DNA of 64,000 bases from Ceratothoa steindachneri. Taxonomy: Eukaryota > Arthropoda > Malacostraca > Isopoda > Cymothoidae. Location: the NCBI GenBank assembly GCA_963969495.1, contig OZ018319.1, positions 205,267,405 to 205,331,404 on the forward strand, read 5' to 3'. A model generated the notes under the pieces. That model made no database searches. It was given only the letters and a program-made list of their open reading frames with translations, and was not told the origin of the DNA. Both the position numbers and the translations under genes were made by a program. Below are positions 2,791 to 62,529 of this stretch, piece by piece; within the stretch, counting starts at the first letter, position 1, and every line of letters starts with the position of its first letter.

Positions 2791-2799
2791 ATATCGCAC

Positions 2800-20765: not shown

Positions 20766-20771
20766 GGAGTC

Positions 20772-24345: not shown

Positions 24346-24443
24346 AGACAATTGAGCGGGGATGTGCCCGCTCAACAGCGAGTCCAAAGGTATCCTCATT
24401 GAATGGACCGTAAGGTCTTCTAGCGTACTTATTTTCCTTGTTA

Positions 24444-24476
<33 letters not shown>

Positions 24477-24499
24477 TCTCTCGCTCTCTCTCACCCATT

Positions 24500-25110
24500 G
24501 AACTGCAAAATAGGTATTCAGAATTAAAAGAAGAAGATACTTATTTATTTGGAGACTGCTTAATCAGAGATCAGATTGACTACTTCGGTGCGAAAAATTC
24601 TTGAAAACGTAAATTTAGGTGTTATCCTGGAGCTAACATCAAGAAGATAACCCAAGAGATAGACAACCTAACTTTAAAAAATCAAAAGTGTTCAGTAATA
24701 GCCGATGTTAGAAGTAATGATGTCTTTCGTAAAAATAATTATGCCGGAACTGAAGAGATAATTGAGGACTATACTACGTTCATCAAGAAAATCAAATCTA
24801 AGACTAAAAGAGGCATGGTAATCGGCTTACTACCGAGATTAAATTCAAATAGAGAAGCGTTAAGTCGAGCAATTGGCATTAACGATCGCGTAAAGAAGAT
24901 ATGTGAAAAAGAAAATGTTAAATTCTTTCACTTTTGTCATAAATTTATCCAAAAAGAGGCATACTTTAACCATGATGGAGCGCATTTTAGCCTAAAAGGA
25001 AAAAAGGAATACGGAGAATTGCTCCATCTAAATTTGATAGAACTTCTAGAACAACCTAGTATCTTCTCAGAACCCCAAGAAAATTCGGAAACTACTTCGG
25101 TGCAGCATTA
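24500..25110 (+). pseudogene. CR1 ORF1 esterase, copy B
   Basis: LFGDCLIRDQ (the serine position of the GDS block is C here), then VRSNDVF in the GxND position, VIGLLPRLNSNREALSRAIGINDRVKKI, and NHDGAHFSLKGKK with the D-x-x-H pair. The block order and spacing match the intact ORF1 at 61372. A stop follows near 24602 and a frameshift separates the two halves. The cysteine in place of serine would probably disable a serine esterase. Confidence 0.75.
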
Positions 25111-25129
25111 GAAGTAAACGGATAACTTC

Positions 25130-25812
25130 ACTCAAAGCCATCTTATTTAATGCCAGATCAATCAGGAACAAATTATCAGAATTCAAAGCGTTAGAGGCAT
25201 TAAAAAAATATGATATAATAGGCATCACCGAGACGTGGATCCACAATCATTCGAGGGACTATATCAATGAATTTCATTTGCAAGGCTACAAATTATTTCC
25301 CAAAGATAGAATTTATAAGGAAGGAGTAGGAGTACTCTTATATATAAGTGAGGAGGACCTTCAGCCTATTATCCGCAATATAGATACATAATTTAAACTA
25401 ATAGGAATAAAACTAAATAGAAACAAATTTTTACATATATATATTTGGCCTATAGAAAGCCACGCCAATCAAATGAAACAGACAATCGATTTTATGATTT
25501 TTTGACGAGCGTTAGTAAGGACAGATTCTCTCTCATTATTGGCGATTTTAACTGCCTCCAAATTAATTGGAGGACAAAGAATTCAGATTCTGAAGGAAAA
25601 AGATTACTAAATTTCATAGATAAAAATCTGCTAACTCAATGGGTCACTGAGCCAACAAGAGGAGAGAATATATGGGACTTAATCTTAACTTCAGATGATG
25701 AACTTATTTCAAACGTGAGCGTAGGCGATCAACTTTGCAGCAGTGATCATGACCTAATAGAATTTGAATTAAATTTACCTCACAAAAGAATTGTAAGAAG
25801 TATTACAAAATA
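25130..25812 (+). pseudogene. CR1 ORF2 endonuclease, copy B
   Basis: NARSIRNKLSEF, IGITETWIHN, VGVLLYIS, then in a second frame AYRKPRQ, IIGDFNCLQINW, LTQWVTEPTRGENIWDLILTSDD and SDHDLIEFEL. All main catalytic blocks of the APE endonuclease are present, but stop codons near 25390 and a frameshift near 25445 break it. Confidence 0.8.
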
Positions 25813-27890
25813 GACTTCCGAAAGGCTAATTTCATAGATTTAAAAAGTCTCAAAAATTATAAAATAACTGGTAGAGACATAAATGAAGCATGGAATGAAT
25901 TTAAAAACAATCTTTTCATGAAACAATCCCAATTCATTCCTCTAGCAGTCAGAACAAGTGGAAAAAGTCAAAATCCTAAATGGTTACAAATTAAATCAAA
26001 AGAGACATAAATAAAAGAAACTAGGCTTTTAAGTTGATCAAATTAAACAGCTCAGAAGCGAATAAGAAGAAATATATTGATCTCAGAAGAAAAGTAAAAG
26101 CTGGAATTAAAAGATCAAAGTGTAACGAGGAAATGAGAGTAGCTTTAAACTGTAAAGAAAATCCCAAAGAATTCTTTGCCTTAGTTAATACTAGAAAACC
26201 AATAAAAAACAGCATTGTCCCAATCAATGATTGTCACAATAATTTACAAGTTAGAGATAAAGATATAGCCACTGTACTAAAGGAGTATTTCGCATCAGTT
26301 TTCAACAACGAGGCGTCAAATCAAAATATCATACCATATAATGAGTACTTAGGCAATGACCCACTAGAAATATTGAAATGCACGAGCAACGATGTACGAA
26401 TAAGAATGTATAAAATAACAAATTCAAATCCCCAGGACCCAATAAGATAGTGCCAAGAATAATCAAAGAAGTAAAAGATGCAGTAGTAGACCAAATAACA
26501 TACATTTTTAACTTATCACTTGAAACTAGTACTGTCTCTCAAGATTGTAAATTAGCCAATGTAACGCCAATATTTAAAAAGGACGTAAAGATCTGGCATG
26601 CAATTATTGACCTATAAGTCTAACATCAATAATTGGCAAAATGCTCGAGAGTATTATTGCAGAAAAAATAGTACGCCATTTAGAAACCAACGAATTGCTA
26701 AGAAACACGCAACACGGATTTGAGAAACACAGATCTTGTCTTACAAATTTATTAGAGTTCTTCCATTACATTAACACAATTCATGATAGTGAGAGATCTG
26801 TCGACATACTGTATCTGGACTTTCAATATGCCTTCGACAAGGCGCCACACAGGAGATTAATGTCAAAAGTTAGAGCTCTAGGAATACGAAGTAAAATAGC
26901 AAATTAGATTGAAGACTGGCTTAGTAATCGTAAACAGAGGGTCATGATCAATAGAGAGGAGTCTGAATGGATACCTGTGAGTAGTCGCGTTCTTCAGGGA
27001 TCGATCCTGGGACCCTTGCTCTTTATTATTTATGTAAATGACATAGACGTGGAATTTATCTCTAAAATCTCCAAATTCACTGACGATTGTAAACTGGGTA
27101 AGAGTATAATTACCGAGCAAGATATAGTAGATTTTCAAAAGGACATTGACCACATAGCCTAATGGTCTGAAAAATGGAAACTTCCACCGAATCTTGAAAA
27201 ACGCAAAGTGATGCATGTTGGCCACAAAAATCAGAAGGCAGAATACAAACTCCTTGATAAAACAATAGCAGAAACAAAAAAACGAAAAGGATCTCGGTAT
27301 TTGTGTGTCAAATAATATCAAGTTCACACAACACTGTGTCGACGTAGAAAAAAAGCGCGAAAGATACTCGGTTATATTAAGAGACAGATTAGCTATAAAA
27401 GCAAGACCGTATTAATTAACTTGTACAATGTTTTAGTAAGAGCACAATTAGAATATTGTACCCAAGTGTGGTCGCCCTCCCTCAAAAAAGATATAGAAAG
27501 ATTAGAAAGAGTGCAAGGTACGTCTACGAAAATGACAACATCATTAAGAAAATACAGTTATAATACACGGCTGGAAAAGTTAAACCTTTACAAATTAGAA
27601 ACAAGACGTATACGAGGTCAACTAATTGAAGTATATAAAATCTTAAATGGAATCTAAAATGTGGACTACTACATCTGGTTTTAATTCAATAAAAATATTA
27701 CACGTAATAACAGCATGAAGCTCGTTCCGAAAAAGTAGACTCAATGTATGTGGAAATTTGTTTTCGTATAAAATTGTAAATATATGGAATCAGTTGTTGG
27801 AAGAGGTTGTCTCGAGTCCCACCATTAACACATTTAAAAAGAGGTTATATAAAGTTATAAGGACTATTAACTATTAAATAGTACTTGTTG
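25813..27890 (+). pseudogene. CR1 ORF2 linker and reverse transcriptase, copy B
   Basis: The linker NCKENPKEFFALVNTRKPI is at about 26140. Palm motifs are QHGFEKHRSCLTNLLEFF, DILYLDFQYAFDKAPH, LQGSILGPLLFIIYVNDID and SKFTDDCKLG. The third-aspartate box reads FTDD instead of FADD. The thumb (NVLVRAQLEYCTQVWSPSLKKDIERLERVQ, TRRIRGQLIEVYKILNG) follows. At least four stops or frameshifts are present. Confidence 0.8.
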
Positions 27891-27899
27891 ATAAATATT

Positions 27900-28077
27900 T
27901 GAAAATCTTTACTATTAAAATTCCTGGTTGAGCTCTATATTTCATCTGAACCAGGTATCTTTTTGGTTTTCCGTACCCACGTGGCGGGTGGGAGAGGAAA
28001 GAGGAGAGTGGGAAGAGACTTCAACTTTAATGTCTTTTTGTCTCCAACTCCTAGATTTTTTTTTTGTATGTATAATA
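27900..28077. other. Junction between LINE copies B and C
   Basis: Unassigned sequence with a T-run; it probably includes the copy B 3' untranslated region. Confidence 0.3.
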
Positions 28078-29138
28078 GAACGGCAACGGGTGGTGGTGAA
28101 TGGACAGGCTTCTGAGTGGGTGCCAGTTACTAGCGGGATGCCTCAAGGTTCTGTCCTGGGACCACTAATATTCATCATCTACGTCAACGACATGGACGGT
28201 GACATGGTTGCCAAGATTTCTAAATTTGCCGACGATACCAAGCTTGGTATGAACGTTGCAAAGGATGGAAATATTGCCCACCTGCAGGAAGATCTTGGGA
28301 AGATTGGGGAATGGTCGGACACGTGTAAAATGCCTTTTAACGTGAACAAATGCAAAGTGATGCATATAGGCTACAGAAACCCCCAATCTCAGTATATCCT
28401 TAAGAGCACTGCTCTTGAATCGAGTGACACTGAGAAGGACTTGGGTGTAACTATCACTAGCGACCTCAAGTTCTCGAAACAGAGCATCGAGGCACAGAAG
28501 AAAGCCCAAAGGATGTTAGGTTACATAAAGCGCAATTTGGATACCGTAACAAGGAGATAGTACTTTGTCTCTACAACTCTCTCGTTCGGCCGCACCTGGA
28601 GTATGACATACAATTTTGGAGTCCTTCGTTTCGAAAGGATATCGCAAGGTTGGAACGCATACAAGCCAGGGCAACCAAGCTGATCCCCTCTATCCTACAT
28701 AAAAGTTATGAGGATAGACTAAGGGAATTAAATCTGTTCTCGCTGGAAACCCGTAGACTGCGTGGTCAGCTCATCGAAGTTTTCAAAATACTTCGAGGGT
28801 TCAACAATGTTGACTACCGGGATACTTTCACACTGAGTGAGAACAGAACGCGCAATCACGGCTTCAAACTTGAACTGAAGCATTACAACCGCAATCTGTG
28901 TGGAAATTTTTTCACCTACAGTATCTACGGTAAGTGGAACGCACTTCCAGTGGAGGTTATCAACAGTGAATCTGTTGACCAGTTGAAGTCAAGACTAGAC
29001 AAAGTCTTGAAAAGTGTCCGTTTAGGGACGCAAAACAATTGAGCAGCCATGTGCCTGCTCGATTACTAGTCCAAAGGTACCCTCTTTGAATGGACCGTAA
29101 GGTCTCCTAGGGTACTTACTTTCCTTGTTACTCCTTGT

Positions 29139-33090: not shown

Positions 33091-34375
33091 CATGGAGACT
33101 CTCACTAAGAGGGTTCCCCTACGGACCATACCTGGAATGAAGGCACCTGAAAAGAGCAAACTTTGCGAGTCGCTATTCAATGAACTGAGAGTAGCCATCG
33201 TTAAGCTAATCATAGTTTCCTCTGGTTTCATCGCCATTTGTGGGGGAACCAAGGATGTCGACCGGCTCCTGTCCAAAGAGCAAGCCGAATTACTAAAATC
33301 AATTAACCTCGAAGCAAAGACGCCCCCACAAGTGGCAGCCAACCGCAGAATTATCTGTCGCAAAGTTGAACGATGGGTTGGTGAGCATTCTGCTGACGAA
33401 ATTAAAAATGAAATAGGAAGTCAACACTCATAGGCGAAGGTCAAAGAAGGGATCAAATTCCGCGACCACACGTATGTTTTTGAAGTGACCTTTCTATTGA
33501 CCGAAATGGCACACAAAGCCACAACGGAAAGACTCCTCGTTTTCAACATGAGGATCCCTGAATGCAACATCGAACTGGAAAAGTTCCATAGCATCCAGAT
33601 GTGCTTTGTGTGTTACAAGTTAGAAACACACACAACGACGAACTGTTCCGAAAAAGGAAAACTGCGGTGCAGCGAATGTGCCACAGAATGACACCGCTAC
33701 GACACCTGCAAAAGCAAAAGGAGAAAATGTGTGAACTGCAAGGGCAGACATAGGACGTTAGCCCTAAACTTCCCAAAATGAAAAGACATTATAAGGAAGG
33801 TGAAGGAAGAAGAAAAGAAGAAAAAACAAAATACGTACCCCGGCACAGTGTAGAAAAGCCAAGAGACGCTACCAACTATGGCATCCCCATCCCAAATGAA
33901 CTCCACGAATGAACTCAGTGCAAAAATCCTGATTTGCATCACGCATGCAAACGTGGCTAACGCGGTAAAGCCTGGGTTCTATAAACAGGTTCTAAACGCG
34001 CTACTGAAGACAAACAAACTGCCTTCGGTCATTATGACCGAGAACCCTGAATGCTCCAAAATATTCAAGAAGTTTGTCATTAGGAACAACGCAAGTATCA
34101 AGTCTGGATTGGAAGAAGCAATGGAAGTACCCTCATCGGAGGACCGAGGAGGAAGAAGAAGAAAACAAGGAAGACAAAGAACAAGAAGACAATGAAACCA
34201 CCTCTTCGGACAGTGACGAGGGCCCATGCACTCGTGCACGAGCGACGAAGGGTAATTCAAAAACTTCTAGTCCTCCACCGAAGAGTGAAAAGCCTGGGCA
34301 CACTAATACTGCCCCATAGCCCAAGAAAAAGAAAAGGAGCAAGAGGAAACATAAGTAATTACATCTCATCATAGA
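33091..34375 (+). pseudogene. LINE D ORF1 (gag-like, zinc knuckles)
   Basis: An N-terminal segment METLTKRVPLRT... (33091-33433) is followed by a knuckle region: CFVCYKLETHTTTNC (C-x2-C-x5-H-x4-C), LRCSECATE with a stop inside, and KCVNCKGRH. Then comes a segment at 33878-34195 and an acidic, serine-rich tail. Zinc-knuckle ORF1 proteins coat LINE RNA. At least three stops or frameshifts break it. Confidence 0.7.
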
Positions 34376-35570
34376 ATTAAGCGCACTAAGAATACTGGAA
34401 ATCAACTCCAACGGCTGGACGACAAAAAGGACTCTTTACGGAAAATTATTCAGAGAAATTGATGCAGATGTCATCTTGATATCAGAACATGGGTGTGACA
34501 CTCGTAATTCTGAAATGAAAATTTGGAATTACGATGTGTTGATCACAAATCACTCACAAGAGCGGTATGACGGTGCCGCTATTGCCATCAAAAAAGGGAT
34601 CAAATACAAGCCAATTAGAAATCTCGAAGAATCCTTTTTCGCGATTGAGGTCGAACTCGACATTGGGAAGCTGGTCATCGCTGCCGGGTACCAGGCGCCG
34701 AGGAGAGGATACTTACCGATCCATTCTCTCGCTGGACTATTTGGCAAGAGAGCCCCCACCATATTAATGGGATATCTGAACGCCAAATGTCGGGAATCCG
34801 GCTACAGGACCTTCAGTGGAAATGGAAGGTGCCTATACACTCTGCTGGACAGAAACATGGTCCAACAGATAGGCCCAGACTTTCCCACCTTTGCTCGAGG
34901 AAGAAGTGCAACAAAACCAGACATATGTCTGCCCATTCGTCAGCTACGATTTAATTGCTACATGGAATCAGTCCAGGTACCATGCAGTGACTATATAGGG
35001 ATCCTAATCACCATCAACATGAACCCTATATATGTCCCAGCTGTAGTTAGAAAAGTCTACAGAAGAGCAGACTGGGAACGGTACGCGCATCTTCTCGAGG
35101 CCTACCATCCTCCCAACCTGGATGAGGCAATTCTCGGGGAGATCAACGAGGCACTTGACGACCTTAATAACCATCTCATCAACGCGGATAGGGCATGTAT
35201 CCCGAAAAACCAGTATAAGTCAATCTCAGCCTACAGGTGGACAGGATACATGAAATAACTGTAACGTGAGTTGAGAGTAATGTATGAAATCAACATCAGG
35301 AATGCATCGATTGTCTCAATACAGCGAAGTAAAGAGAGAAAATAAGAGCTCAACCAGTTGATTCTCGAACAACAAGGGAGGCAGTGGGATGATGCGATCG
35401 AGAGCCTCGATCAAGATGCATCTTCCAAAGATCTTTGGAATAAAATCAGCGTCTCAAAGGACCAACTGGGAAAAAGAAGAAAATAGAAATATAAGGAAGG
35501 CGGAACCATAGAAACAAGAAAAAGGAATAGAAGAAATATTCCGACATTATTGGAAAAAAACCTTCATTAT
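34376..35570 (+). pseudogene. LINE D ORF2 endonuclease and linker
   Basis: ILEINSNGWTTKRTLY, ADVILISEHG (catalytic E), DGAAIAIKKGIK, AAGYQAPRRG, TILMGYLNAKCRESGY in the place of the usual GDxNAxHxxWG, and YMESVQVPCSDYIGIL for the SDH block. It is open from 34476 to 35258 but key catalytic positions are altered. The linker then reads ELNQLILEQQGRQWDDAIES and KDLWNKIS, parallel to LINE F. Confidence 0.75.
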
Positions 35571-35582
35571 ATCCGAAGAAGA
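35571..35582. repeat. Target-site duplication of LINE E (left)
   Basis: ATCCGAAGAAGA occurs here and identically at 39744-39755, bracketing LINE E. This side is followed by a T-run (the LINE E poly-A tail on the minus strand). Confidence 0.92.
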
Positions 35583-35763
35583 TTTTTTTTTAAGAGATCA
35601 TCTGGCGACTGCCTACTTAGGTAATAGTCGCAGTATTAAAAACTGCCTAGTACTAGGCTACTTTAAAATAAGATTAAAAAACACAAAAAAACAACACTAG
35701 AAAAAAAAATGAAAAGGCAATGAGCAGGAACGTGCGACCTATAAAGAAAACAAAAAAAAATAG

Positions 35764-36357
35764 TTAAATAAAAGATAGAAGGCCGGCCTCCCACAAAAAG
35801 TCTACAAGTCCACCAGTCAATGTGCACGCACTCGTCCCGAGTACAAGGGAAAGGTGGGAGCGACCCCGCCCATCCCGGTACCGGGACAGATAACGTGGGA
35901 GAAGATCGCCCAGGTTAGGATATGCAACAAGAATGTGCCGAACAGTCTGGGGGACAACGCAGTCTTCACAGTATGGCGCTGGCGAGCGCCCCATCAAATG
36001 GCGGTGCGTCCCGCGAGTGAGCCAAATTCTGAGACGACACAAAGCAACCTGAAGCCTTCGGGGCATTGGGAGGTAGGTCCATGGGAACAGTCACGGTGCA
36101 ATGGCACGCAACTTTAAGTTCCCTTCGACCGTCTCCCATCTTCTTTGCCAAGCAGTCCGAAGAGCTGTCGGTTTTCCTGCCATGTAGTCAGTTTGAGGAA
36201 GAGTGAAACGCTGGTTCGGTCGCAGAGTCCCCGCGGACTCTTTAGCGCCCTCATTCCACACAATTCTTACATGTCCAGGAACCCAGCAGAAGATAATCTC
36301 GACATCCGCCCGGCTCGCGAACCAGGGGATGCGGAGATTCCAATGCCCCGAGAGCAC
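35764..36357 (-). pseudogene. LINE E ORF2 C-terminal region
   Basis: The end of the RNase H fold, IIFCWVPGHVRIVWNEGAKESA (about 36280), then RTAWQRRWETVEGNLKLRAI, and in another frame RRLQVALCRLRIWLTRGTHRHLMGRSPAPYCEDC and VRHILVAYP, the C-x2-C-type tail of I-group LINEs. One frameshift separates it from the RNase H part at 36251 and another lies at about 36070-36110. Confidence 0.8.
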
Positions 36358-37297
36358 TCAGGGCACTTTGTGAGTCGCTATAGATTACAATCCGGTCTCC
36401 GAACCGGGCACGTCGCGTAATCTCCCGTGCCAAGTGATGTATTGCCAACAGCTCGGCCGTGAAGACAGACGCAGCGCCTGGCAGAGCCCCGTTAAGTTCA
36501 AAGAGAGGGGATACGGCGTGAAAGCCGACATCCTCTTCGGACTTGGAGCCACCCATATATACTCGCATGATTCCAGCGTAAGACGAGTTGAGTTCTAAAA
36601 AGGTCGAACGCAATACTCCTGGCACTGTACAAGCTTTGGGAGCAGAGGCGTGGCCACAAATAGCCAAATGTGGTAACCTCCAGGGTGGCATCCTGTTCAG
36701 AACCAGGGGCGCCACCGGCGCGAGAGGTATACGTACCTCTCGAAGGAGTTTATTGGCTATATACCCAAAGGGCTTAGGGTATGACTGGCGTCTCTCGGTG
36801 GCATAGGCGCCGTCGAACTCAGCTGCGGATGCAGTGAGAGCTGTTGACGACTGAGGGAGGCGCCGGGCTCGCTTGTACAGGCGAATGATGCACTGTACAT
36901 GGCGTAGAGCGAGTGGCATCTCTCCAGCATCGACTAGTAGACTCTCAATGGGGGGGGGGTGCATAAGGCACCGGTCGTCAGGCGAAGGCCGGTGTGGTGC
37001 ACGAGTCCATCTTCCGCAGTACACATTTGGCTGCGGGTGCATAAGACTCGCATCCATAGTCGAGCTTCGAACGAACAAAGGGCCTTCTTTTCGAGGATCC
37101 ACCGTCTCCGAGGCACTCAGCCCACCACTAGGCATGGGCGAAGGAGCCGGAGTTCCTTTGTTGCTGTCCTTCTTTTGGGGGACAGCCTTAGGAACCTTCG
37201 AAGATGGCCTGGCCACCAACTTCAGGGGTGTTGCCTCCTGTGAGTCAAACGACTCGGTGGAGGCGCGTGACCGTTTCGCCTTACGGGAAACGGTCAC
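36251..37297 (-). pseudogene. LINE E fused frame: ORF1 tail joined to RNase H
   Basis: 348 residues. About residues 1-60 (lysine, serine and proline-rich) continue the ORF1 C-terminus. The region from about residue 120 resembles the end of a reverse transcriptase, and residues about 245-330 form an RNase H domain: VYMGGSKSEEDVGFHAV (catalytic D replaced by G), AASVFTAELLAIHHLA (E), IYSDSQSALSAL (D). The direct jump from ORF1 to RNase H shows an internal deletion of about 3 kb relative to a full I-type element. Confidence 0.75.
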
Positions 37298-37542
37298 GCT
37301 GGGGAAAAGGGGGAAGCCCTGGTTTTAGCCAGGGCTGGGTATGAACCTTTTTTGCCGCCAGGTTTACTAGGGAAGCGCCCGGGTTGAGTAGAACTCGCAG
37401 AAGGGCTCCGAATGGGTGGGGAAACAACCGTGCTCGTTGGCCTGGATGGGCCAGGAGCAGAGGGTGTCTTTCTAACCATTGATGCGTAAGACGTCCCAGG
37501 TAGAGCCGAGCGCGCCAGAACCAAGTCCTTAGCCCTGCGGAA

Positions 37543-38331
37543 TTAGAGTCGATCCTGGACCTCAACGGTCAGGATTTCTTTCTCAAGGTTATATGCACCA
37601 CATTGCTTCGGAGAAGCGGGGTGCGGCTCTCTACAATTTACACACTTGGCCACACACGATTTGGAATTATCGTGTGCTGCCTTGGAGCAATTTACACATA
37701 CTTCGGCTGACTCCGACTTTGCACTTTTACATGAGCGATTCGTATGGCCGAAGCAGTGACAGTAATAGCATCTCTGCGGCAGTAAAACGAATGCCTTCAC
37801 GCGGTAGCGGTACCAACCGGCACCCACTGACTCAAGGAGCTTGTCACAGTCGAACGTGTCGAAGAATGTAGGGGTGAGTCTCAAGGCCCCTTCCTGTTTT
37901 CTAATCACACGCTCGACCTTGACCGCCCCGTGGTCGGCCAGCTCTGAGGTGATATCTTCTATGGAGTAGTCCAAGAGTTCCCTCGCATAAACTACTCCTT
38001 TCACAAAGTTCATGATATAGTGCAGGGTCACACTCACCGAGGGGCCATCAAGTGTCCGAAGAGCACTTATCTTGGCCGCCTCCGAGGGATCCGCTGCATT
38101 GGCCAGAACGCTCCCGTCCGAGAAACGGGTTACCTTCGGCTCTCTAACAATTACACTAGCTAAAGCTCTCCTCTGATTGATCATGTTACCCTTGGCCAAC
38201 ATGCTGCCATCAGTGGAGCGAATAACTAAGAAGTATTTGAAGCCAGCGGGCTCGAAAACGCCAGGTAACCTCTGAATGAGGTGCTCCGATGTTATCAAGG
38301 CTCCGCCCTGCGCACTCTTGGTCTTAGTCAC
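37543..38331 (-). pseudogene. LINE E ORF1 (gag-like, three zinc knuckles)
   Basis: 262 residues open. An RNA-recognition-like region (about residues 20-190) is followed by CYYCHCFGHTNRSC (C-x2-C-x4-H-x4-C), CVNCSKAAHDNSKSC and CVNCREPHPASPKQC. This arrangement is typical of I, R1 and Jockey LINE ORF1 proteins, which package the RNA. The frame is shifted after residue 262 relative to the tail in 36251-37297. The true N-terminus may lie upstream. Confidence 0.8.
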
Positions 38332-39743
38332 AGGCTCCGCACCCGTGGGCAGAGGGGCCGGAAGTGCCGATCTTGGCTTGGTCGCTCACCGAAATGGCAG
38401 CAGACCCATCCGTCCCCGCAGCCCCCACGAATGGAGAGGAGCCCGGAGTCTTTTTTCTGTTTTTTTCTTTTTAGGAGAGGAGGGCGGGTAATGAACCCGC
38501 CTCTTCCCTCCGCCGGCAGGAGCCCCCAGGCCAGATGGACCAGCCTCAGCAAGGTCCTTCTCCGAGATGGAGAAGGTCCAGGAAGCGCAAGGGCACCGGA
38601 CGGAGGAGATCCCTCCCCTCTTTGTACTGCCTTGGAAACCCGAGCCGTTTGAGGAGGACCTTGTATAAGGGAGGACTCAGGTTCGGTGCTTGACGCTGAG
38701 CCCGGATTCGCTCCCATGGAAGGCCCTGCTGTCTGAGGCTGGGTTGACTCAAGGAGCATGTCTATCTCAGGGGCAGCCTCCAGTTGCCCCCCCTCCTCAG
38801 GACATAACAGGTCCTAGTGGCAGCAGTGTCTTTAGTCACGTCTTGGGAGTCACAGGCCTTGACCCGGACAAGGCTCAATATTCTTGCCAGCAGGTCTTTT
38901 GAGGGAAGCGACAGAAGGGGCCTGGCTACCTTCTCCCCCCTAAGGGGGTTTTCCCTAACGAGCCACTTCAATGGGGAGCGGTCGGCTATGGGCTACCTGC
39001 TGGCTTTCTTGGCAGTCCCCTTCGAAAGTAAAGGGGAAACTGCCACCAGAAAGAGGGAGGTGCCCGAAGGCATCTCCAGACAAGGGGGTGAGGGGGAGTC
39101 CCCTGCGCACGCACAGGGGGAACCTCCATCTTTTCTGTGGAGCTGCCCGAGGGCGGCTCCGAAGATGGAAAAGGGGAAATTGAGGAGAGATTTTTTATTT
39201 TCTCATCATTGGGATGGTGACCCTATTTTTTGTACGGGAAGCAATCGCTCATCAACCCTCGCAGTAGCCCGCCCTGCAAGGGATGCGTACAGGCCTGGCA
39301 GAGCTAGGTGCCGCAATTCAAGACCACCGCTCCAGCCTGGTGGCCTGGCAGCCCCTCGGCATGGCGGCTCTACCTTGGACACGGCGTAAAATTTATAGTG
39401 TGAAGAGGAAAGGAAAATGGATGTGAGGAAGGTATGGGTGCTGATGAAGCAGGTTGTTAAAAAACCACCATCCCAAGCCGGATCTCAGGGGTGAGGGGAC
39501 ATTGTCCCCTCCCTCCTCAGCCCCTATCTGGGATAGTTGGGTGAGAAGAAGGTCAGCATATACCCTGAGAAAATAGAGGCCGACCAGAGAAAGTTGTGGG
39601 AGACGTTGTAGGGGAAGTGAGGAAGTAGGGAAGAAATACAGGCTGTCTGAAAGAAGGAAAAGAGGCTAAGCTGGGGCCGGACGGGGCGCTGAGTCCCGTT
39701 AGCACGGCGGACAGGATGGCAAATCGCCGCGCCCCTTACAGAG
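38332..39743 (-). mobile_element. LINE E 5' region
   Basis: GC-rich sequence upstream of ORF1. Several frames of 70-190 codons occur on both strands because of the GC content, without recognisable domains. Part may be the ORF1 N-terminus and part the 5' untranslated region. Confidence 0.5.
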
Positions 39744-40236
39744 ATCCGAAGAAGAAAACGAAGATTTTGATATAGAGTTCGAGAAGAACATTGTAGACGA
39801 GCTTAATACACAAATACATAAGACGCATCCTCACCACCAGGTGGAAAGAAAACGCGACGGAGACGCCGAGATCACTGAAGAAGAACTACTCGGCGCGCTC
39901 CGCTCATTCCATCAGAAAGCCCTAGGACAATCAGGGCTTACGAAGCTAAACTTCCAAAAGGCACCAGCTAATGTCATCGATGGAATGAGAATAATTTTTA
40001 GCGCGTGTCTAAATACGGAATACTTTCCCGATGCTTATAAAACTGCAAAGATAATCTTCTTGCCAAAGCACGGAAAGGACCCAACGTTGAGAGACAGCTA
40101 CCGGCCAATTTTACTTCTAGAATTTGGCGGGAAGCTCTTCGAGAAGATCCTCAATCGAAGCCTAGTGTCTCACCTGGAGGATAACTTCCTCTACAACCCA
40201 TTCGAATACTGGTTTAGAAAAAAGCGAAACACATGA
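39744..40236 (+). pseudogene. LINE D reverse transcriptase (after LINE E)
   Basis: Starts in the right-hand duplication and reads SEEENEDFDIEFEKN, then EITEEELLGALRSFHQKALGQSGL, NTEYFPDAYKTAKIIFLPKHGKDPTLRDSYRP and LLEFGGKLFEKILN, ending FEYWFRKKRNT. It is one open frame of about 160 codons including the 131-residue stretch from 39841. It stops where a Penelope-like fragment begins at about 40237, before the catalytic YADD motif. Confidence 0.85.
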
Positions 40237-52507: not shown

Positions 52508-53190
52508 GCCTCAGAGAGAGAGAGAGAGAGAGAGAGTATGAGAGTGCGCGAATTTTTGTGTGTGATAGAGGGAGTGTGTGGGGGGGAGGAGGATGTGAGA
52601 GTGCATGAGACAATATAGAGAAATAAAAATATTGAAAGCGTGAGAGAGAGTATGTGTAAGAGAAGGAATGGAAGAGACTGTGTGAGAGATAGTATGTGTA
52701 GGAGAGCGTGTGTGAGAGAGTTTGAGAGAGAGTGTGTAGGAGTATATTTGAGAGTGTGTTTGTGTGAGAGAGAGCATATCAGAATGTGTGAGGTTGCCTA
52801 TGAGAGATATAGGGTTTGAGAATGTGAGAGAGTGCGTGTGAGTGAGAATGCGTGAGAGAAAGAGTGTGTGTGAGAATATTTAAGATAGAGTGTGTGAAAG
52901 ACAGAGCGTATGAGACAGTATGTGAGAGAGTTCGTGTGAAATAGTTTATGTGAGAGACAAAGTAATAGAAAGAGTAGGAGATGGAGTGTTTGAGAGAGAG
53001 TATGTGAGAGAGTGTGTGAGTGTGTGAAACAGAGTTTGTTTAAGATAGTTTTTGAGAGAGAGTGCGCGAGGGATAAAGTGTGTTAAAGAGGGGGAGAAGG
53101 AGAGAGAGATGGAGAAAATGAGAGAGAGAGAGGGAGAGGGAGAGGGAGAAAATGAGAGAGAGAGAGAGTGAGAGACAGTATATGAGAGAG
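52508..53190 (-). repeat. Expanded (CT)/(CACTCT) tail of a LINE
   Basis: On the minus strand this is a long, degenerate mix of CT and CACACTCTCT units starting exactly at the 3' end of the CR1 LINE fragment to its right. The matching tail of the inverted copy is at 60415-60655. Frames through it are artefacts. Confidence 0.85.
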
Positions 53191-53951: not shown

Positions 53952-54035
53952 TACAGGGTCCTCCCCAAATGGGCCTGCACACACTTTTTGTGATATATCT
54001 TTCATTCATACACTAATCACCCTTACTTTGCAGGA

Positions 54036-54337
54036 CATGACAGAAGCAACACCTGTGAACACAACTCGATCTCAATGGGAGCTCCAGCAAAGAATATACT
54101 GAGTCAAACATTACTACAAGACAGGCTCGTTCAAGAAAGTGCAGGACACTTTCGTGTATCAGTTCGAATGTGAAAAAGCCCCCTCCAAAAGCAGAATTTA
54201 GGACTGTGTGCGCCACTTCGAGAACTATGGGACAGTGGAGAACCTCAATGCAGCCAGTGACAACCGTCCAAGCCCTTCGGTACGCCCCAGAAAGCGTACA
54301 GCTGAGCTGGTCAAGAGCGTCAGACGAAGCAGACCCT
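54036..54337 (+). pseudogene. Mariner transposase, N-terminal part
   Basis: ATG at 54036. The frame has a stop at codon 22 (TGA where TGG would fit a W before VKHYYKTG), then FKKVQDTFVYQFECEKAPSKSRI, another stop, and CVRHFENYGTVENLNAASDNRPSPSVRPRKRTAELVKSVRR. This is the paired helix-turn-helix DNA-binding region of Tc1/mariner transposases. It ends where the retroelement begins. Confidence 0.8.
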
Positions 54338-54607
54338 TAGTTTAGTTTAGTCCTCCCCCCCCGCAGGGTGAGGAGGACCTTCCTTTAATTATTCAAAGTA
54401 CAAAAAGTTTAAACAAGTACAAAAAATGAAATTATTGAAAAATTTCTTTAACAAACCAAAGATTTATAACAAAGACAGAGGTCCAGCTAACAAGCCTGGA
54501 TATCACCGTATGGGATAGTGGCAGGATAGTGGAAAGGGAGAAAAGAGATGTCGGAGGTCCGAGGAAAGACAGAAGAAAAGACTGGTGGAGCCAGGGGAGG
54601 AAGGAGG

Positions 54608-54631
54608 GAGCAGGTCACACCGGTAGCAGAG
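54608..54631 (-). repeat. 24-bp repeat, 3' copy (R-like)
   Basis: Identical over 24 bases to 57774-57797 (contains CACACCGGTAGCAGAG). It sits about 38 bases downstream of the minus-strand TATA box, near the expected transcription start, so it behaves like the R region of an LTR-type transcript. Confidence 0.85.
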
Positions 54632-54668
54632 CTGTTAAACGTCCGTCCCGGCTCGGGGAGTGTGGGTC

Positions 54669-54676
54669 CTTATATA
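54669..54676 (-). promoter_or_regulatory. TATA box of the retroelement (minus strand)
   Basis: ACTATATAAGGACCC on the minus strand fits a core-promoter TATA element. The position upstream of the 24-bp repeat supports it. There is no experimental evidence. Confidence 0.6.
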
Positions 54677-54705
54677 GTCCCGAGAAGGAAAGGGCCCGCA
54701 CACGC

Positions 54706-57183
54706 CTAGAAGGTTCTTGCAAAGTGCCGAGACGGGACGTCAGCCGGATTGTGCCTGCTTCGAACGTAAGAAAAATTCCGAGATGAGATCCTGAAGGCCG
54801 AGGAGTAGTTAAGTAGAGATGTAGTAGAGAGGCAGAGAAGAATAGCCTCTGGAAGTTTGCCCCTCTTTGCGTTCCAGAGGGCGCCAATATTGTCACCGTA
54901 GGTGAGGGCGCGGGGGGCAAACAAGGTGGAGAGGATGAGACCCAAGGATTCAAGATCAAAGATCCCAAGGTCCCATTGGCGGCAATCGAGGGCCATAGAG
55001 GCGCCCTGCGACCACCACCCGATGCCCCAAGGAGAGGCGTCGACGAAAAGCCCCGGAGGGGCTCCTTTAGGGGGGCGGAAACGAGTCCACCTGCCGTGGA
55101 TGAGGCGGCTAAGGTGGAGGAAAGGTGCCGGGTTGGGGTGGGCGTCTTGCGAGTAGCACAGCTGCACCCAGCAGAAAGGAAGGCGAAGTGCAGGAAGAAT
55201 GAAGTTGAGGAGTCCAGCAAGACGAGACCATGCCTTGCGGGAGACCGGGCGGGTGGACATGATGCGGAGAGCAGTCCGGGTCTTGTTCCGCATAGAGGAG
55301 GTGAGGCGGATACGCTTGAGCTTCAAGTCAATATTAAAGCCAAGGTATGAAATCTGTTTCACCGGAGTGGTGAGCGATTTCCTCCAGTTCGCGTTGATCG
55401 AGCTACGCTCGATGGTCTTCATGAACGCTCTGAGGGCGCGCTTCTGCCCAATACAGAGCACGTCGTCCAGGTAGGTGTATACCTGGATGCCGTGACCTGA
55501 AGCGAGCTGGTTCATGGTTGTCGCCGTGAGTTTCTGCATTAAGAAGGGGGCCCCATTAAAGCCCATGGGGAGACGTGTGAACCGAAACGATCGACTGTCG
55601 CATCGGATTCCGAACCAGGGGCGAGCTTTCGGATGAAGGCGTACATGGTAGAAACCATCCTTGAGGTCGAGCTTCATAGCCCAAAGATGTTCGGTGGCTG
55701 ATTCCATGATTTTCTTTACGCTGGGGAGGCTGAACTTCGGGGGGTGGTATGCCTCAGCAGCAGGAGACATGTCGTAAATAAGGCGAGCGGAGCCATTAGG
55801 CTTAGCCACCCCGAAGATCCGGTGGGCACAGCGGATGCTGGCCTCCTCAAGTACTCCACGGTCCATGAGGGCGGAAATCCAAGGGAGAGTGCGAACGTCG
55901 GAAGGGGCCCAGTTGCGGTATGTCTTATTCAAAAAGATTTTTACACCGTTCTGGGCGTTGGCCTTCTGGAGGTGGGAGATGGGGGTTATAGAGTCGTATG
56001 ACCCAGGGGTTTCCACGTCCAGGGGGGTGTCAAAGTCCACGCGGGGCGTGTCAGGCTCAAGTGGGTCGAGGCCGGGGCTTTCCCACTGGTTGCCCTGGTC
56101 ATCAGCGTTGCCTTGGTTGCCGTTGTTGTTGTCCCGTTCATTCTGTCGCTGGTCGTTACCATCGTTGTCTTCGTTACCACCGTTGCGACCTCTCATGATG
56201 TCTGGGGGGCCGCTGTTGGGGTCAATAAGGACATCACCCATTTCCGAAGGGTGGGTGTCCGAAGAGGCGATGGACGCTGGAGGGGGGGTGGCGACAGGGC
56301 CTTGAAGCACTGTGGGGACTGCGAGGCCCGGGAGAGGAATACACACGGTGTGGCACGGGGGTGAGGCCCGCGGGGGGTCGGCGAGCACAAGGGCGCCAAG
56401 CTCCTGGGCGGCGGCCTCAAAAAAGGCAGTTACCTCGGGCACAGGTAACGGGGGGTACACACAGATGGTAGGGTCGAGCAACTCGACTACCTCCGGCACA
56501 GGGGCAGCACCAAAATCTGCAAACACTGGTTGTGGGATCTCGTCCCGACGTCCTAAGGGGACATCACACACTTCGATGACACTTTCGGCAGGGCTTGGCC
56601 CAGGGGGGGGCCTAAGCACATCGTACACGATGTGAGGAATTGGCACGGGGGAAACTGAACGCACGGGGGTTCCGAAGAGGTCACCGTCGACGCAAGGCAT
56701 CCACTCCGGTGTGGATGAGGCGCCGGAGATGGTGAAGCCCGAAGCCGAAGAGTCCAAGGTAGGACTGGGGCTAGGGAAGTAAGGAGGCGAGCCGGGGCTC
56801 AAGGAACGAAATTCCTCAGAGGTATCCGACCGAGGGCGGCTGTCGTATCCCATGCGGCGGCGGTGGCGGGCGATGCGGACTTCAGTTTGCCAATCCACGC
56901 TGGATCTAACGTCGAGCAGGAACCTGCGGGCCCGCTCGAGACCGAGCTGCAGGGCGCCGCCGACCAACTCGTCGGGGCGCTGGTGCCCTGTACCAAGAGC
57001 CATATGCCGGGGGCGGTCTAGCCGCCGTCGAGCGGTTGAGGATCCGGGAGTCGTATTCAATGCCGGACTCGTTGGAGGCCTGGAGCCTCGTGTCGATGGT
57101 GGCTGCGGACCAACCATGTATGGACACTGTGTAATATAAACGGATGCGCTGGTGAATAGTATGGAACGTCGCAGTGGGTACAC
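54706..57183 (-). CDS. Retroelement polyprotein: disordered N-region, reverse transcriptase, RNase H
   Basis: 825 residues, uninterrupted. Residues about 1-120 are basic; about 120-420 are proline-rich and low-complexity, with an N/Q/D/G-rich stretch at about 332-365. The reverse transcriptase follows: WISALMDRGVLEE, GVAKPNGSARLIYDMS, WAMKLDLKDGFYHVRLHP (about 500), LPMGFNGAPFLMQKL, YTYLDDVLCIG (about 566-575), ISYLGFNID, then SRLAGLLNF. RNase H: FVDASPWGIGWW (about 713), FDLESLGLIL (E), YGDNIGALW (D), SYVRSRHNPADVPSR (about 808-818). All catalytic acids are present. The upstream frame 56906-57727 probably encodes its natural N-terminus; the first ATG here may not be the true start. Confidence 0.8.
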   Translation of the reverse strand: MYPLRRSILFTSASVYITQCPYMVGPQPPSTRGSRPPTSPALNTTPGSSTARRRLDRPRHMALGTGHQRPDELVGGALQLGLERARRFLLDVRSSVDWQTEVRIARHRRRMGYDSRPRSDTSEEFRSLSPGSPPYFPSPSPTLDSSASGFTISGASSTPEWMPCVDGDLFGTPVRSVSPVPIPHIVYDVLRPPPGPSPAESVIEVCDVPLGRRDEIPQPVFADFGAAPVPEVVELLDPTICVYPPLPVPEVTAFFEAAAQELGALVLADPPRASPPCHTVCIPLPGLAVPTVLQGPVATPPPASIASSDTHPSEMGDVLIDPNSGPPDIMRGRNGGNEDNDGNDQRQNERDNNNGNQGNADDQGNQWESPGLDPLEPDTPRVDFDTPLDVETPGSYDSITPISHLQKANAQNGVKIFLNKTYRNWAPSDVRTLPWISALMDRGVLEEASIRCAHRIFGVAKPNGSARLIYDMSPAAEAYHPPKFSLPSVKKIMESATEHLWAMKLDLKDGFYHVRLHPKARPWFGIRCDSRSFRFTRLPMGFNGAPFLMQKLTATTMNQLASGHGIQVYTYLDDVLCIGQKRALRAFMKTIERSSINANWRKSLTTPVKQISYLGFNIDLKLKRIRLTSSMRNKTRTALRIMSTRPVSRKAWSRLAGLLNFILPALRLPFCWVQLCYSQDAHPNPAPFLHLSRLIHGRWTRFRPPKGAPPGLFVDASPWGIGWWSQGASMALDCRQWDLGIFDLESLGLILSTLFAPRALTYGDNIGALWNAKRGKLPEAILLCLSTTSLLNYSSAFRISSRNFSYVRSRHNPADVPSRHFARTF

Positions 57184-57727
57184 TCAGCCGGAAGGGAAAT
57201 AGAGCCAGCAGTAACTCTATCTCAATCCTGTCTCGTGGTCTGAAGCACGATGACGAGAGGTGACGGCGAAGGTGCGTGAGAATTACTTCCCACCGGATGT
57301 GGGCGTAGCACTCAATGTCAACCGGCTGGGCCCTTGTAGTTTCTTCTGTGGTGGAGTCGTACGCTGGCGGCGGACGACTAGGCGTCCTAGGGGTTTCTGG
57401 ATCAACTAGATAGGAGAGGGGCTCTAGGTGAAAGTCTCGAAGAGCCTGAACCGGAGGGGGCGACGGTCCCCTTTCGTGGCGGGCCTCCGGCCTCTCGCTC
57501 GCCGGTGAAGTGGCGAGGCTGCGGGATGTGCCGGGGAGGAAATAGCGCGTGCTGCTCGCCTGAGAGCCAGCGCCGAATCCACCCTCGCCCGTGCAGGTCC
57601 CGGAGTCTTGCGTATCAGGAACGGACGCGGTCGCTGTTTCTGGAAGGTCTGGGAGTTCCGATGTCGGCGGGACAAGCCGAAGCCTGCTACCTGTGGATCT
57701 GGAAAGGCTCATCCCCGGAGGCCGCAA
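56906..57727 (-). CDS. Retroelement upstream frame (gag-like or N-terminal part), overlaps the RT frame
   Basis: 273 residues from the ATG at 57727. The first half is proline/serine/threonine-rich. About residues 135-225 (IRWEVILTHLRRHLSSSCFRPRDRIEIELLLALF... and RIRLYYTVSIHGWSAATIDTRLQ) look like a folded domain that I cannot name. After about residue 232 the sequence becomes arginine/proline-rich, like a wrong-frame reading, while the overlapping frame 57183-54706 becomes protein-like from about 57010. So one ancestral protein may have been split by a frameshift near 57000-57050, or a programmed frameshift joins the two. Confidence 0.55.
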   Translation of the reverse strand: MRPPGMSLSRSTGSRLRLVPPTSELPDLPETATASVPDTQDSGTCTGEGGFGAGSQASSTRYFLPGTSRSLATSPASERPEARHERGPSPPPVQALRDFHLEPLSYLVDPETPRTPSRPPPAYDSTTEETTRAQPVDIECYAHIRWEVILTHLRRHLSSSCFRPRDRIEIELLLALFPFRLSVPTATFHTIHQRIRLYYTVSIHGWSAATIDTRLQASNESGIEYDSRILNRSTAARPPPAYGSWYRAPAPRRVGRRRPAARSRAGPQVPARR

Positions 57728-57773
57728 GGCGCCGGGAGAGATGAATCAAACCAAGGAAGAAGATGAGCAGAAA

Positions 57774-57797
57774 GAGCAGGTCACACCGGTAGCAGAG
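57774..57797 (-). repeat. 24-bp repeat, 5' copy at the retroelement terminus
   Basis: Exact copy of 54608-54631. Mariner transposase sequence resumes immediately after it, which fixes the 5' end of the insertion at or very close to 57797. Confidence 0.85.
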
Positions 57798-58367
57798 GCT
57801 ATGGCAGTCAAGATACTGGAGAAGATTCAGGAGACCCCAACTTTCCTTAACCTCCTTTGGACCTCAGATGAAGCTCACTTCCATCTTGAAGGCAAGGTAA
57901 AATGGAGGAAAAATGTCTTCTGGGGGACCTTCAGACCAAATAAGGTAGTTATCAAGCCCCTGCACTCCCTTAAGTGCACGGTATGGACTGCAATCTCAGC
58001 CATAGGCATCATCGGATCATTCTTCTTCGTGGAATCTGACGCGACAGTGACAGTCTCCAAGAAGGGGTTTGTTGAGGTCCTCAAAACCTCCAAGAGTGAG
58101 CTGCAGACCCTGTTTCGGCCGCTTATGGGGAAGTTCTGGTTCCAGCAAGATGGAGCAAGCTCCTACACCTCAAACCTGTCCCAAGATTGGCTGAAAGAGA
58201 ACTTTGGTAGCCGTGTGATCAGTCTCAAGACTGATTTTGAGTGGGCACTTTACAGCCCAGACCTTAGCCCCACAGATATCTTTCTCTGGGGCTACCTTAA
58301 AGACAGAGTGTACGCGGTGAGCCCAATGACTATCACGGACCTCAAGTCATTAGTCGGTGGTTTGTAA
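57798..58367 (+). pseudogene. Mariner transposase, catalytic part (DD41D)
   Basis: MAVKILEKIQETPTFLNLLWTSDEAHFHLEG (first D), VWTAISAIGIIGSFFF, MGKFWFQQDGASSYTS (second D), YSPDLSPTDIFLWGYLKDRVY (third D). I count 41 residues between the second and third acids, which places it with DD41D Tc1/mariner elements (rosa/visitor type) and not DD34D. The three acids are intact in this half, which is open to its end at 58367. The upstream codons of the 57591-58367 frame (MQVPESCV...) belong to the retroelement and are not transposase. Confidence 0.88.
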
Positions 58368-58589: not shown

Positions 58590-59305
58590 TCAAAACAATA
58601 AAAACGTTTCTAACTGCATCAAAACTATCATTGTGCCCATGGTCGAGAGCATTGTAACGAGTGTCTCTCTCCATCTCCCTCCCCCCTCTCGCTATAACAC
58701 ACAATTTCTCCTACACGCACGTTCTCACACACTTTCTCGCACAAACTCTGTTGTACACTCTCACACAATTTTAAATACTCTCACACACTCCATCGCTCAC
58801 TCCCTCTCACATACATTGTTTCACACACTCTGTCTCACACACCCTACCTTTCATATGCTATCTCTCAAACACTCCGTCTCTTTCAAACAGTCTCTCTCAC
58901 ACACATTTTCTCACACTCTCTCTCTCACGCATTCACACACTCTCACACATTCACACACTCTCACATATTCACACACTCACTCAGATATGCACTCTTCCGC
59001 ACACACTTTCACACATACTCTCTCACACACTCTCACACACACTATCTCTCACAAACCATTTTCTCTCACTCACTGGCTCAGACACACATACTCTCTTTCA
59101 CGCAGTGTTACACTCTCCCATACACTCTCTCTCACACACAGGCTCTTTCACACACTCTCTCACATACTCTCTCTCATACACTATCTCTCTCTCAAATCTC
59201 TCTCACACTCACTCTTACTCACTCTCGCTTTCAATCTCTCAAACTTGCTCTCACTCTCTCAATTTTGCTCTCAGTCTCGCTATCACCCTGTAAGTTTCTT
59301 TTACA
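58590..59305. repeat. Degenerate (CACACTCT)n tract
   Basis: From about 58665 to 59290 the sequence is a CT/CA-rich tract of CACACTCTCT-type units. The 270-codon frame 58540-59352 is a translation of this tract. Because CR1 copies here end in such tracts, it may be the expanded tail of another LINE copy whose body is gone. Confidence 0.85.
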
Positions 59306-60866: not shown

Positions 60867-61371
60867 TAGATAAATGAGACGGACTGAAGCTCCGAATACT
60901 AATTAGATAACCGTGGTTAGGGAATGGTTATAATAGGAGCTTGAGGGTAATGAATGATTTACTTCCTTTTAAACTCGAGGGTAGGGTGGGGCTTCTAGGG
61001 GGAGGTCTTGGTGACCTTGAGTACTTACGGGGTGTAGCCACAGAACCCACAGCGACTTGCGTTTGCGAGATGCGGGCCTCCTGTCTTAAGAGGTCACCAA
61101 ACGAACTTCGAAGGCGGAGGGGTTGAGATGACTTCTCTACACTCGGATTGAGCAAGCGAATGGGCCTCTTGTCGTAAGAGGTCAGTCTTCGACTGACCTT
61201 CGAACAGGTAGCACGTGTTTTATAGAGCTCTCAGTCTGTTGATCTATTTTTCAGATTTTTCTATAGTTTGTTTGTTTTTTGTTTTTTTTTCTCACCACAA
61301 TCAGCCAAAGCTAAGTTGCTCTTCTTTTTTTTCTTATTGCTACTTAAATTCTTTCTTTGTTTGAATAAGTG

Positions 61372-62529
61372 ATGGAGTTTGGGGATGAAAGTGAGCATGA
61401 GTGTCGGAATGTATGCATTGGTTGTGGTGTATTAGGTGAGGGGTATACATGTGTTGTATGTGGGCTGCGTGAATGCATTGTAGATTTAGAGGGGATGAGA
61501 AGGCAGGATTTAGACAGGATATGTAGGCTGGAGGGGTTAGTTGCTGAGCTCAGGAGGGAACTTAGTGTTAGGCCTAGATTTGGGAATAGGTTAGGTGGTG
61601 AGGTAGGCCAGTTAGATGTTTCAGGTGAAGGTAGAGGGCCGGTGGAGGAGGTAGGATATGATAGTTCTAGTGATAGTGAAGTTAGCCCCCTTAGATTAGT
61701 TAGAAATAGGCCTAGTGAGGATGGGGGACAGTGGAGAGTGGTTAGGAAACATGAAGCTAGGGAGGCTTCTCCTGTTCTTTGTGAGAATAGGGTTGCCTCT
61801 GTTGAGGTGGTTAGCCAGGGGGAGAATAGGTGTGTGAGTCAGAGGGACACAGAACCTATTAGCTTGACTAATAGATTCAGTGCCCTAAGAGAGGAAGTAA
61901 CTGGAAGTGATATGACTGATGGGGGTGGGGGTGGAGTTCGAGTGACTGGTAGTTTGAATGAGAATAGGAGTGGGGATGGAGTTAGGTCTGTGGGGGTTAG
62001 GAATAGGAGTCTGACTGAAGTGCTTGTGATGGGTGATTCGCGAGTTAGATATTTAGATAGGAAGTTGAATGCAAGTAGATTGAATGGTTTGAGGGTGTGT
62101 TTGCCGGGTGCTGGAGTGAGAGATCTGTCTGATAGGTATGAGGAACTGGTGTCTGGCTGTGCAAGGGATGCGGTTGTGATTACACATGTAGGAGTGAATG
62201 ATGTGAAGAAAGTGGGTGCATGTGAGTTACGTGAGAGGTACAAGAGGTTGATTGAAAAGGTGAAAGAAAGTAGAATGAAAGGTGTTGTGACAGGTGTGCT
62301 TCCAAGAATGGATGTTGGGGTAGAATGGATGTCTCGTGCAATTGGTCTGAATGATTATGTGAGGAGGATGTGTGAGATGGAAGGTGTCATGTTTGTGGAT
62401 GTGTGGGATAGGTTTGTTGGAATGAAAGAAATGTATGCGATGGATGGACTGCATTTGAGTAGGAGGGGGGTAGATGTGTTGTGGGAGGAGTATGATCGTG
62501 TTATTAGGTCTTTGCGGGCGGGAAACTAG
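61372..62529 (+). CDS. CR1 LINE ORF1 protein: zinc finger, coiled coil, SGNH esterase
   Basis: 385 residues from the ATG at 61372 (a GTG one codon upstream was not used). C15-x2-C18-x8-C27-x2-C30 forms a finger. A short coiled coil follows (about 38-65: LEGMRRQDLDRICRLEGLVA and LRREL). The middle is acidic and disordered. The SGNH hydrolase domain spans about 215-382: VLVMGDSRVRYL with G221-D222-S223, THVGVNDV with N276, and MDGLHLSRRG with D358 and H361. All four blocks are intact. CR1 ORF1 esterases are thought to assist retrotransposition. ORF2 starts about 24 bases after the stop. Confidence 0.92.
   Translation: MEFGDESEHECRNVCIGCGVLGEGYTCVVCGLRECIVDLEGMRRQDLDRICRLEGLVAELRRELSVRPRFGNRLGGEVGQLDVSGEGRGPVEEVGYDSSSDSEVSPLRLVRNRPSEDGGQWRVVRKHEAREASPVLCENRVASVEVVSQGENRCVSQRDTEPISLTNRFSALREEVTGSDMTDGGGGGVRVTGSLNENRSGDGVRSVGVRNRSLTEVLVMGDSRVRYLDRKLNASRLNGLRVCLPGAGVRDLSDRYEELVSGCARDAVVITHVGVNDVKKVGACELRERYKRLIEKVKESRMKGVVTGVLPRMDVGVEWMSRAIGLNDYVRRMCEMEGVMFVDVWDRFVGMKEMYAMDGLHLSRRGVDVLWEEYDRVIRSLRAGN

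Follow-up and report, generated by a model that had tools for sequence, protein, structure and literature searches.

Stringent-type long interspersed nuclear elements (LINEs) such as L2 carry a 3' stem-loop with short terminal repeats and are subject to 5' truncation, and Penelope-like elements combine 5' truncation with partial tandem and inverted copies and with a promoter in their repeat. HEART are invertebrate reverse transcriptase (RT) elements of a virus-like group, and their mobilisation is called unresolved (PMC12440569). Here we describe an RT-RNase H element of the isopod Ceratothoa steindachneri, found as an insertion in a stretch of 64,000 nt of contig OZ018319.1 (the window; all coordinates below count from its first letter). 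The insertion is one copy of a multi-copy retroelement family with two genes (open reading frames ORF1 and ORF2), and our searches of open-access papers listed no element of the same anatomy.

With L2-type LINEs the element shares the 3' stem-loop, the short terminal repeats and the 5' truncation, and it differs from them in its type of RT, in repeats made of a 3' unique (U3) and a repeat (R) region, and in having no endonuclease match. Partial tandem and inverted copies, a promoter in a repeat and 5' truncation are also those of Penelope-like elements, a likeness drawn from general descriptions, whereas the RT of the element is virus-like and followed by RNase H. DIRS-like retrotransposons have the closest RT by search, the same order of RT then RNase H and no DDE integrase; in contrast to them, the element has no recombinase or methyltransferase match and has other repeats (U3-R), and trees place it, inconclusively, outside their group. 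Ty3/gypsy elements follow the same U3-R logic in their terminal repeats, whereas in the element neither a protease nor an integrase was matched and no target duplication was seen, and its RT falls outside theirs. Hepadnaviruses and nackednaviruses likewise have RT and RNase H without integrase, an overlapping upstream ORF and a short terminal redundancy; unlike them, the element matches no core or terminal-protein family and forms a genomic multi-copy family with a 3' tail. Finally, the element resembles HEART as a virus-like invertebrate RT without resolved mobilisation, a likeness drawn from the descriptions in PMC12440569, PMC12691608 and PMC11551314.

Results

A two-gene family under purifying selection

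The insertion occupies positions 54338..57797 on the minus strand (element nt 1-3460, where element nt i is window position 57798-i), and its ends are common with other genomic copies. On the same strand, as are all parts of the element given below, lie ORF1, of 273 codons (56906..57727, first ATG at 57712), and ORF2, of 825 codons (54706..57183), which by coordinates is in the +1 frame relative to ORF1. The first-pass annotation, made from the letters of the window, had reported an uninterrupted RT-RNase H frame of 825 residues and an overlapping upstream frame, and both stand. First, ORF2 matches the RT family PF00078 in Pfam (E 2e-18; domain at aa 432-618, 55330..55890, with YLDD at aa 571), and we located D715, E745, D764 and D815, which we take to be the catalytic residues of RNase H, in a domain whose limits we set at about aa 711-821 (54721..55053). 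Second, in first-order Markov simulations of the element body, a stop-free frame of 825 codons was reached in 0/300 runs and one of 273 codons in 19/300, so that the upstream frame alone was not significant and needed other evidence. Codon usage alone gave no clear verdict on the coding signal of ORF1; the frame recurs, as a family-conserved one, in at least 144 genomic matches.

We searched for the family in the assembly from which the window comes (3.93 Gb in 529 contigs); all counts are lower bounds. ORF2 gave at least 55 scored matches from 15,495 first-look candidates, 35 of the 55 being without internal stop. With ORF1, at least 144 matches at 62-100% identity were obtained from 141 scored candidates, many of them partial and three being second pieces of already listed loci. 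We then computed pairwise ratios of nonsynonymous to synonymous substitutions (dN/dS) by the Nei-Gojobori method, for ORF2 from codon 100 and for ORF1 outside the overlap. The median was 0.08 for ORF2 (maximum 0.20; 176 pairs with dS >0.05, of 190 among 20 loci) and 0.12 for ORF1 (maximum 0.71; 80 pairs, of 91 among 15 loci). Among the pairs listed, those with L019, whose truncated ORF1 frame pulls in flanking sequence, gave 0.35-0.52. Pairwise dS reached 0.74 among many open lineages. Both ORF1 and ORF2 are thus under purifying selection and are therefore genes needed by the family. Since both evolve at a dN/dS of about 0.1, the suggestion of the first-pass annotation that the element might be non-autonomous is not supported in the sense of a passive passenger. 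Protein scans of viral and genome contigs yielded no relatives; one scan gave 11 pattern matches, none of them related.

The 825-codon frame opens with GTG. Over its first 40 codons, codon usage fits the ORF1 frame better, and from there on the ORF2 frame; moreover, the open ORF2 frames of L034 and L035 have only 779 codons. The ATG at 57003 is therefore the probable start of ORF2. ORF1 has PPxY motifs at 120 and 239 and an Arg-rich C-terminus; two or more PPxY occurred in 0.6% of shuffled ORF1 sequences, and the divergent copies L078 and L076 retain one PPxY motif and the Arg-rich end. Helices were predicted at aa 138-232 in a low-confidence model that we judged unusable (predicted local distance difference test, pLDDT, 45). 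None of 3990 candidates in the protein database was an ORF1 homologue at E 0.001. As a side observation, ORF1 and ORF2 of L030 stand in one continuous frame (1307 codons at the locus; 2360 reported in the genome).

In ORF1 and ORF2 of the window copy we found no Pfam match to a protease, integrase, tyrosine recombinase or endonuclease, in agreement with what the sequence had suggested at first sight, nor to a methyltransferase; beyond this copy, the scan covered L078, with its ORF1 and its RT-RNase H part. Other copies align to the window copy without extra genes. Two further frames of at least 150 codons overlap ORF2, one of 201 on the minus strand with no Pfam match and one, Pfam-unscanned, of 156 on the plus strand.

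Terminal repeats and copy boundaries

A 24-bp segment is repeated without mismatch at 54608-54631 and 57774-57797 (mean 0 in 100 shuffles), the starts of the two 24-mers being separated by 3166 nt. TATATAA occurs once on the element strand (54676), and the 3' copy of the segment stands downstream of it, as first described, at a distance of 45 nt. The TATA box belongs to U3 (54650..54705), which begins directly after the ORF2 stop and contains TATATAAG at 54676-54669. We compared copy ends in two sets, the 20 best ORF2 matches (L016-L035) and 20 loci chosen among the ORF1 matches with complete ORF1, a choice biased toward complete 5' ends and partly redundant (L097 is the copy already present as L075, and L080 is part of the L064 copy). 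In the first set, half of the 5' ends were in the R region, half were truncated at nt 52 or beyond, and 0/20 had U3; in the second, 5/20 were at U3 (nt 3092-3096), 12/20 in the R region and 3/20 truncated. Because 7/22 starts in the R region lie at TATA +27 to +30, with no start farther upstream, we define R as nt 3149-3190, that is 42 nt. The 24-bp repeat is the 3' part of R: the 3' R (54608..54649) contains it, and the 5' R of the window copy consists of its last 24/42 nt (57774..57797). The first-pass claim of a copy from the transcription start holds in that the window copy is close to a full-length transcript; it starts just inside that point, at TATA +45 as against +27 to +30 in the most complete R-starting copies, and its R is short of 18 nt at the front.

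From the repeat we had predicted that some copies would have U3-R in front of the leader, and such copies were then found. In five of the 20 copies of the second set, U3-R (about 98 bp) precedes the leader and begins directly after the ORF2 stop position; their flanks agree at only 8-16/40 nt. An insertion in the form of a transcript, as first proposed, therefore describes the window copy and is incomplete for the family, in which 5/20 copies have a 5' U3-R and two have U3-R at both ends. In the first of these two (L089/L101, C9:75.67 Mb; length and an ORF1 match fit one copy, the 2.7 kb between the ends being unread), U3-R stands at the 5' end, the 3' end lies in R and the repeats are identical over 94/94 nt. 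In the second (L086/L102, C35:26.48 Mb), the 5' end is U3-R and the 3' end U3-R-tail, with repeats identical over 95/95 nt. The C9 U3-R agrees at 84-88/91 with those of the other U3-starting copies, so that its within-copy identity is informative. In L078, the one divergent copy in which both R are present, 5' R and 3' R agree at 19/20 nt, while its R and that of the window show shuffle-level likeness (330/2000 shuffles reach the score). In the main subfamily, 17/20 loci have an unaltered 24-mer in their 3' R, and the other three are cut there. This agreement of R within elements points to reverse transcription in which strands were transferred from R to R. The idea of a circular pregenomic RNA was weakened, as the 3' R continues into the tail and not into the leader.

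No target-site duplication of more than 4 nt was found in the 18 copies with clean flanks, and abutting duplications averaged 1.1 in these versus 1.4 in 306 mismatched control pairs. The 18 comprise 16 of 27 copies and two U3-starting ones; the other 11 were dropped as one end joined another element piece. Several of the loci examined are rearranged, and we give them as examples with no claim on frequency: two pairs that meet head to head where their 5' ends are truncated (L019, L022), pairs that meet tail to tail (L017/L018, L046/L052), tails after which R starts anew (L051, L090 and, imperfectly, L081) or a piece of U3 stands (L029, L049), and one tail that is present twice (L032). These copies may be read simply as products of template jumping by the reverse transcriptase, recombination being an alternative. 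Three further observations concern single loci. Next to a copy at L021 (4579-5466 and 1-1145), element nt 8-132 and 644-915 form a unit of about 408 bp that is repeated in tandem. The copies L037 and L047, with truncation at nt 2957 and nt 2961, each follow a long A run. L065 is a minimal copy with leader nt 6-59 fused to the tail at nt 3194.

The 3' tail and its stem-loop

Downstream of R and outside the U3-R repeat, the element continues into a 3' tail of 270 nt (54338..54607), with a stem-loop at 54349..54379 (fold of the 63-nt end stretch: -27.7 kcal/mol, z -4.9). The terminal CTAAACTAAACTAA (54337..54350, one base into the flank) differs in length among copies, which stop at differing points within GGACTAAACTAAACTAA. 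The 3' end of the window copy is common to most copies of the first set (15/20 at nt 3432-3460, 5/20 elsewhere), in support of the first-pass annotation. Its reading of this end as a polyadenylation site is not supported: ATTAAA (54389) stands ahead of the conserved hairpin, and in none of the 27 copies inspected is there a poly(A) tract after the element.

The stem-loop region of L078 is 82% identical to that of the window and that of L077, over 38 nt, 95% identical. For the rest of the aligned sequence of L077 and L078 most stretches are at 67-71%, and the U3-R of L077 is at 78% over 63 nt. An alignment of 18 tails (17 distinct, L030 and L060 having the same tail), all chosen for having the stem-loop, has 29 invariant columns. 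The hairpin core (up to 5 mismatches) was found in no other element within 332,128 bases, mostly around the family; one partial match in the window was judged to be chance. Against Rfam, the whole window had no hit at gathering scores, nor had 54330-54800 at E 5. A hairpin fold of the 5' 148 nt was less marked (z -2.3; 5/200 shuffles as low). Some LINEs recognise their own RNA through similar 3' ends, and by analogy the tail resembles these RNA-recognition ends; 5' truncation with a constant 3' end, a LINE-type feature, is also found in the family. The possibility that the tail is a LINE end hitch-hiked by template switching was rejected, the tail being present across family copies.

Relationship to other reverse transcriptases

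A protein search with ORF2 gave 12 distant matches, DIRS-like and Ty3-like, at 24-29% identity. RT trees were built from 84 rows minus 7 (the full-length query copy and six short ones; quick tree), from 47 rows and from 28 rows including L078; they were computed without hepadnavirus, HEART, BEL, caulimovirus and Penelope sequences, and we assigned the DIRS and Ty3 names from Pfam content and clustering. First, the Ty3 rows form one clade that excludes the element (100/99 and 100/98), and the trees place its RT outside Ty3. Second, it lies outside the DIRS group with supports of 94 (quick tree), 98/93 (47 rows) and 87/89 (28 rows with L078), and in approximately unbiased (AU) tests joining it with the divergent DIRS-like rows P0004 (p 0.31) or P0055 (p 0.37) was not rejected. 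The RT thus probably lies outside DIRS.

The RNase H end scored 18.4 bits against PF00336, the hepadnavirus RNase H family, below the cut-off of 22.4, and two of the 57 proteins scanned, query included, had this match; we give it little weight because it is absent in the relative L078. Core or terminal-protein families had no Pfam match at E 10 in the window copy. No DIRS B repeats were found, the longest shared word being 8, which 168/500 shuffles reach. A structure model of RT-RNase H (pLDDT 70.5) matches many retroviral-type RTs and is non-discriminating, its best viral match being the unnamed A0A3S9H6R8. A pattern scan of viral contigs for hepadnavirus-type references returned 15 contigs of 7-79 kb, none usable as a reference.

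Surroundings of the insertion

The insertion lies within the relic of a Tc1/mariner-like transposase (flanks 53992-54340 and 57798-58364), whose right part matches the Sleeping Beauty transposase (E 3e-8) and whose left part has no transposase-like match in PDB; presumably about 47 target codons are missing between the flanks. Low-complexity arms, AG-rich/TC-rich and by eye inverted to each other, flank the relic at 52640-53175 and 58881-59278. Elsewhere in the window, 20722-29042 and 34359-40236 hold LINE-like pieces from several elements, with matches to RT and endonuclease and further frames by eye, and 61369-62529 an open frame with a GDSL lipase match.

Discussion

We consider it probable that this two-gene family supplies its own RT-RNase H, has no recognisable integration enzyme, and combines virus-style copying with LINE-style insertion. 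The RNA would have the order R-leader-ORF1-ORF2-U3-R-tail. Reverse transcription could begin in the tail, at a break or nick in the DNA, as in LINEs, and such tail-primed synthesis could yield the common types of copy, those beginning at the transcription start and those with a truncated 5' end. A cDNA reaching the 5' R could switch to a 3' R and go on to copy U3, by which the promoter would be restored ahead of the leader. Joining to the chromosome could occur by primed synthesis or by host end-joining. We propose more tentatively, as a possibility short of an even chance, that the family stands for a separate retroelement class in which U3-R strand transfer is combined with LINE-type, stem-loop-primed insertion without an integration enzyme of its own.

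Several observations weigh against this mechanism. Between TATA and the end of R, no canonical polyadenylation signal was found. Some copies end inside U3, R or the middle of the tail (L017 at nt 3143, L022 at 3176, L027 at 3183, L101 at 3186, L025 at 3298 and L020 at 3343), and these also fit end-joining of linear DNA. U3-R is also alike among the five copies that start with it (84-91/91 nt; L084 equals L086), and since the C35 U3-R is that of L084 at 91/91, the identity within L086 is weak evidence. Among these five, one has the tail, one ends in R, two have no match in the 3' stretch retrieved, and one (L064/L080) stops at nt 1484, where an inverted copy adjoins. The comparison of R within L078 is that of one copy with R located by eye, and other non-coding blocks of L078 are as conserved as its stem-loop (start site 17/18 nt, leader 51/58).

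The alternative that survives best, though we regard it as unlikely, is that the copies are endogenous remains of an episomal pararetrovirus-like agent, kin to hepadnaviruses, nackednaviruses or HEART, captured by host repair or by LINEs. It would account for the overlap of ORF1 with ORF2 in the +1 frame, like P, labelled +1 in PMC5604429, for the spacing of the two 24-mers, for the many open and divergent lineages, and for the PPxY motifs and Arg-rich C-terminus of ORF1, as described for the core of hepatitis B virus in PMC11389946, a similarity of layout in outline only. However, the sub-threshold PF00336 match that speaks for it is absent in L078, no core or terminal-protein family was matched, and the ORF1 model could not be used. 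The RT motif here is YLDD, whereas YMDD is called fully conserved in the set of PMC11551314. Moreover, the tail lies outside any R-to-R circle and is present in most copies.

Much less probable is a DIRS-like element with split direct repeats that has lost its tyrosine recombinase: the best protein matches are DIRS-like and the AU tests allow a junction with P0004 or P0055, but all three trees place the element outside the DIRS group, the window copy has no recombinase or methyltransferase match, and B repeats are missing. Least credible is a short long-terminal-repeat retrotransposon integrated in trans by the integrase of another element, which would fit U3-R at both ends of L089/L101 and L086/L102 but not the 5' truncation with a common 3' tail, the RT outside Ty3, or target duplications that show no excess over controls.

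RT-RNase H elements are classed largely by their integrating enzyme, and this family keeps both of its proteins under strong selection without a recognisable one, while its copies bear the marks of two replication styles. How integrase-free elements persist is, by PMC12440569 and PMC12691608, open for HEART and relevant to the origin of hepadnaviruses. If the mechanism of tail-primed insertion with R-to-R transfer is true and the family is kin to HEART, it would reveal how an enigmatic relative of hepadnaviruses moves. The family also provides many copies, which can be counted, with which to study the persistence of reverse-transcribing elements that lack an integrase.

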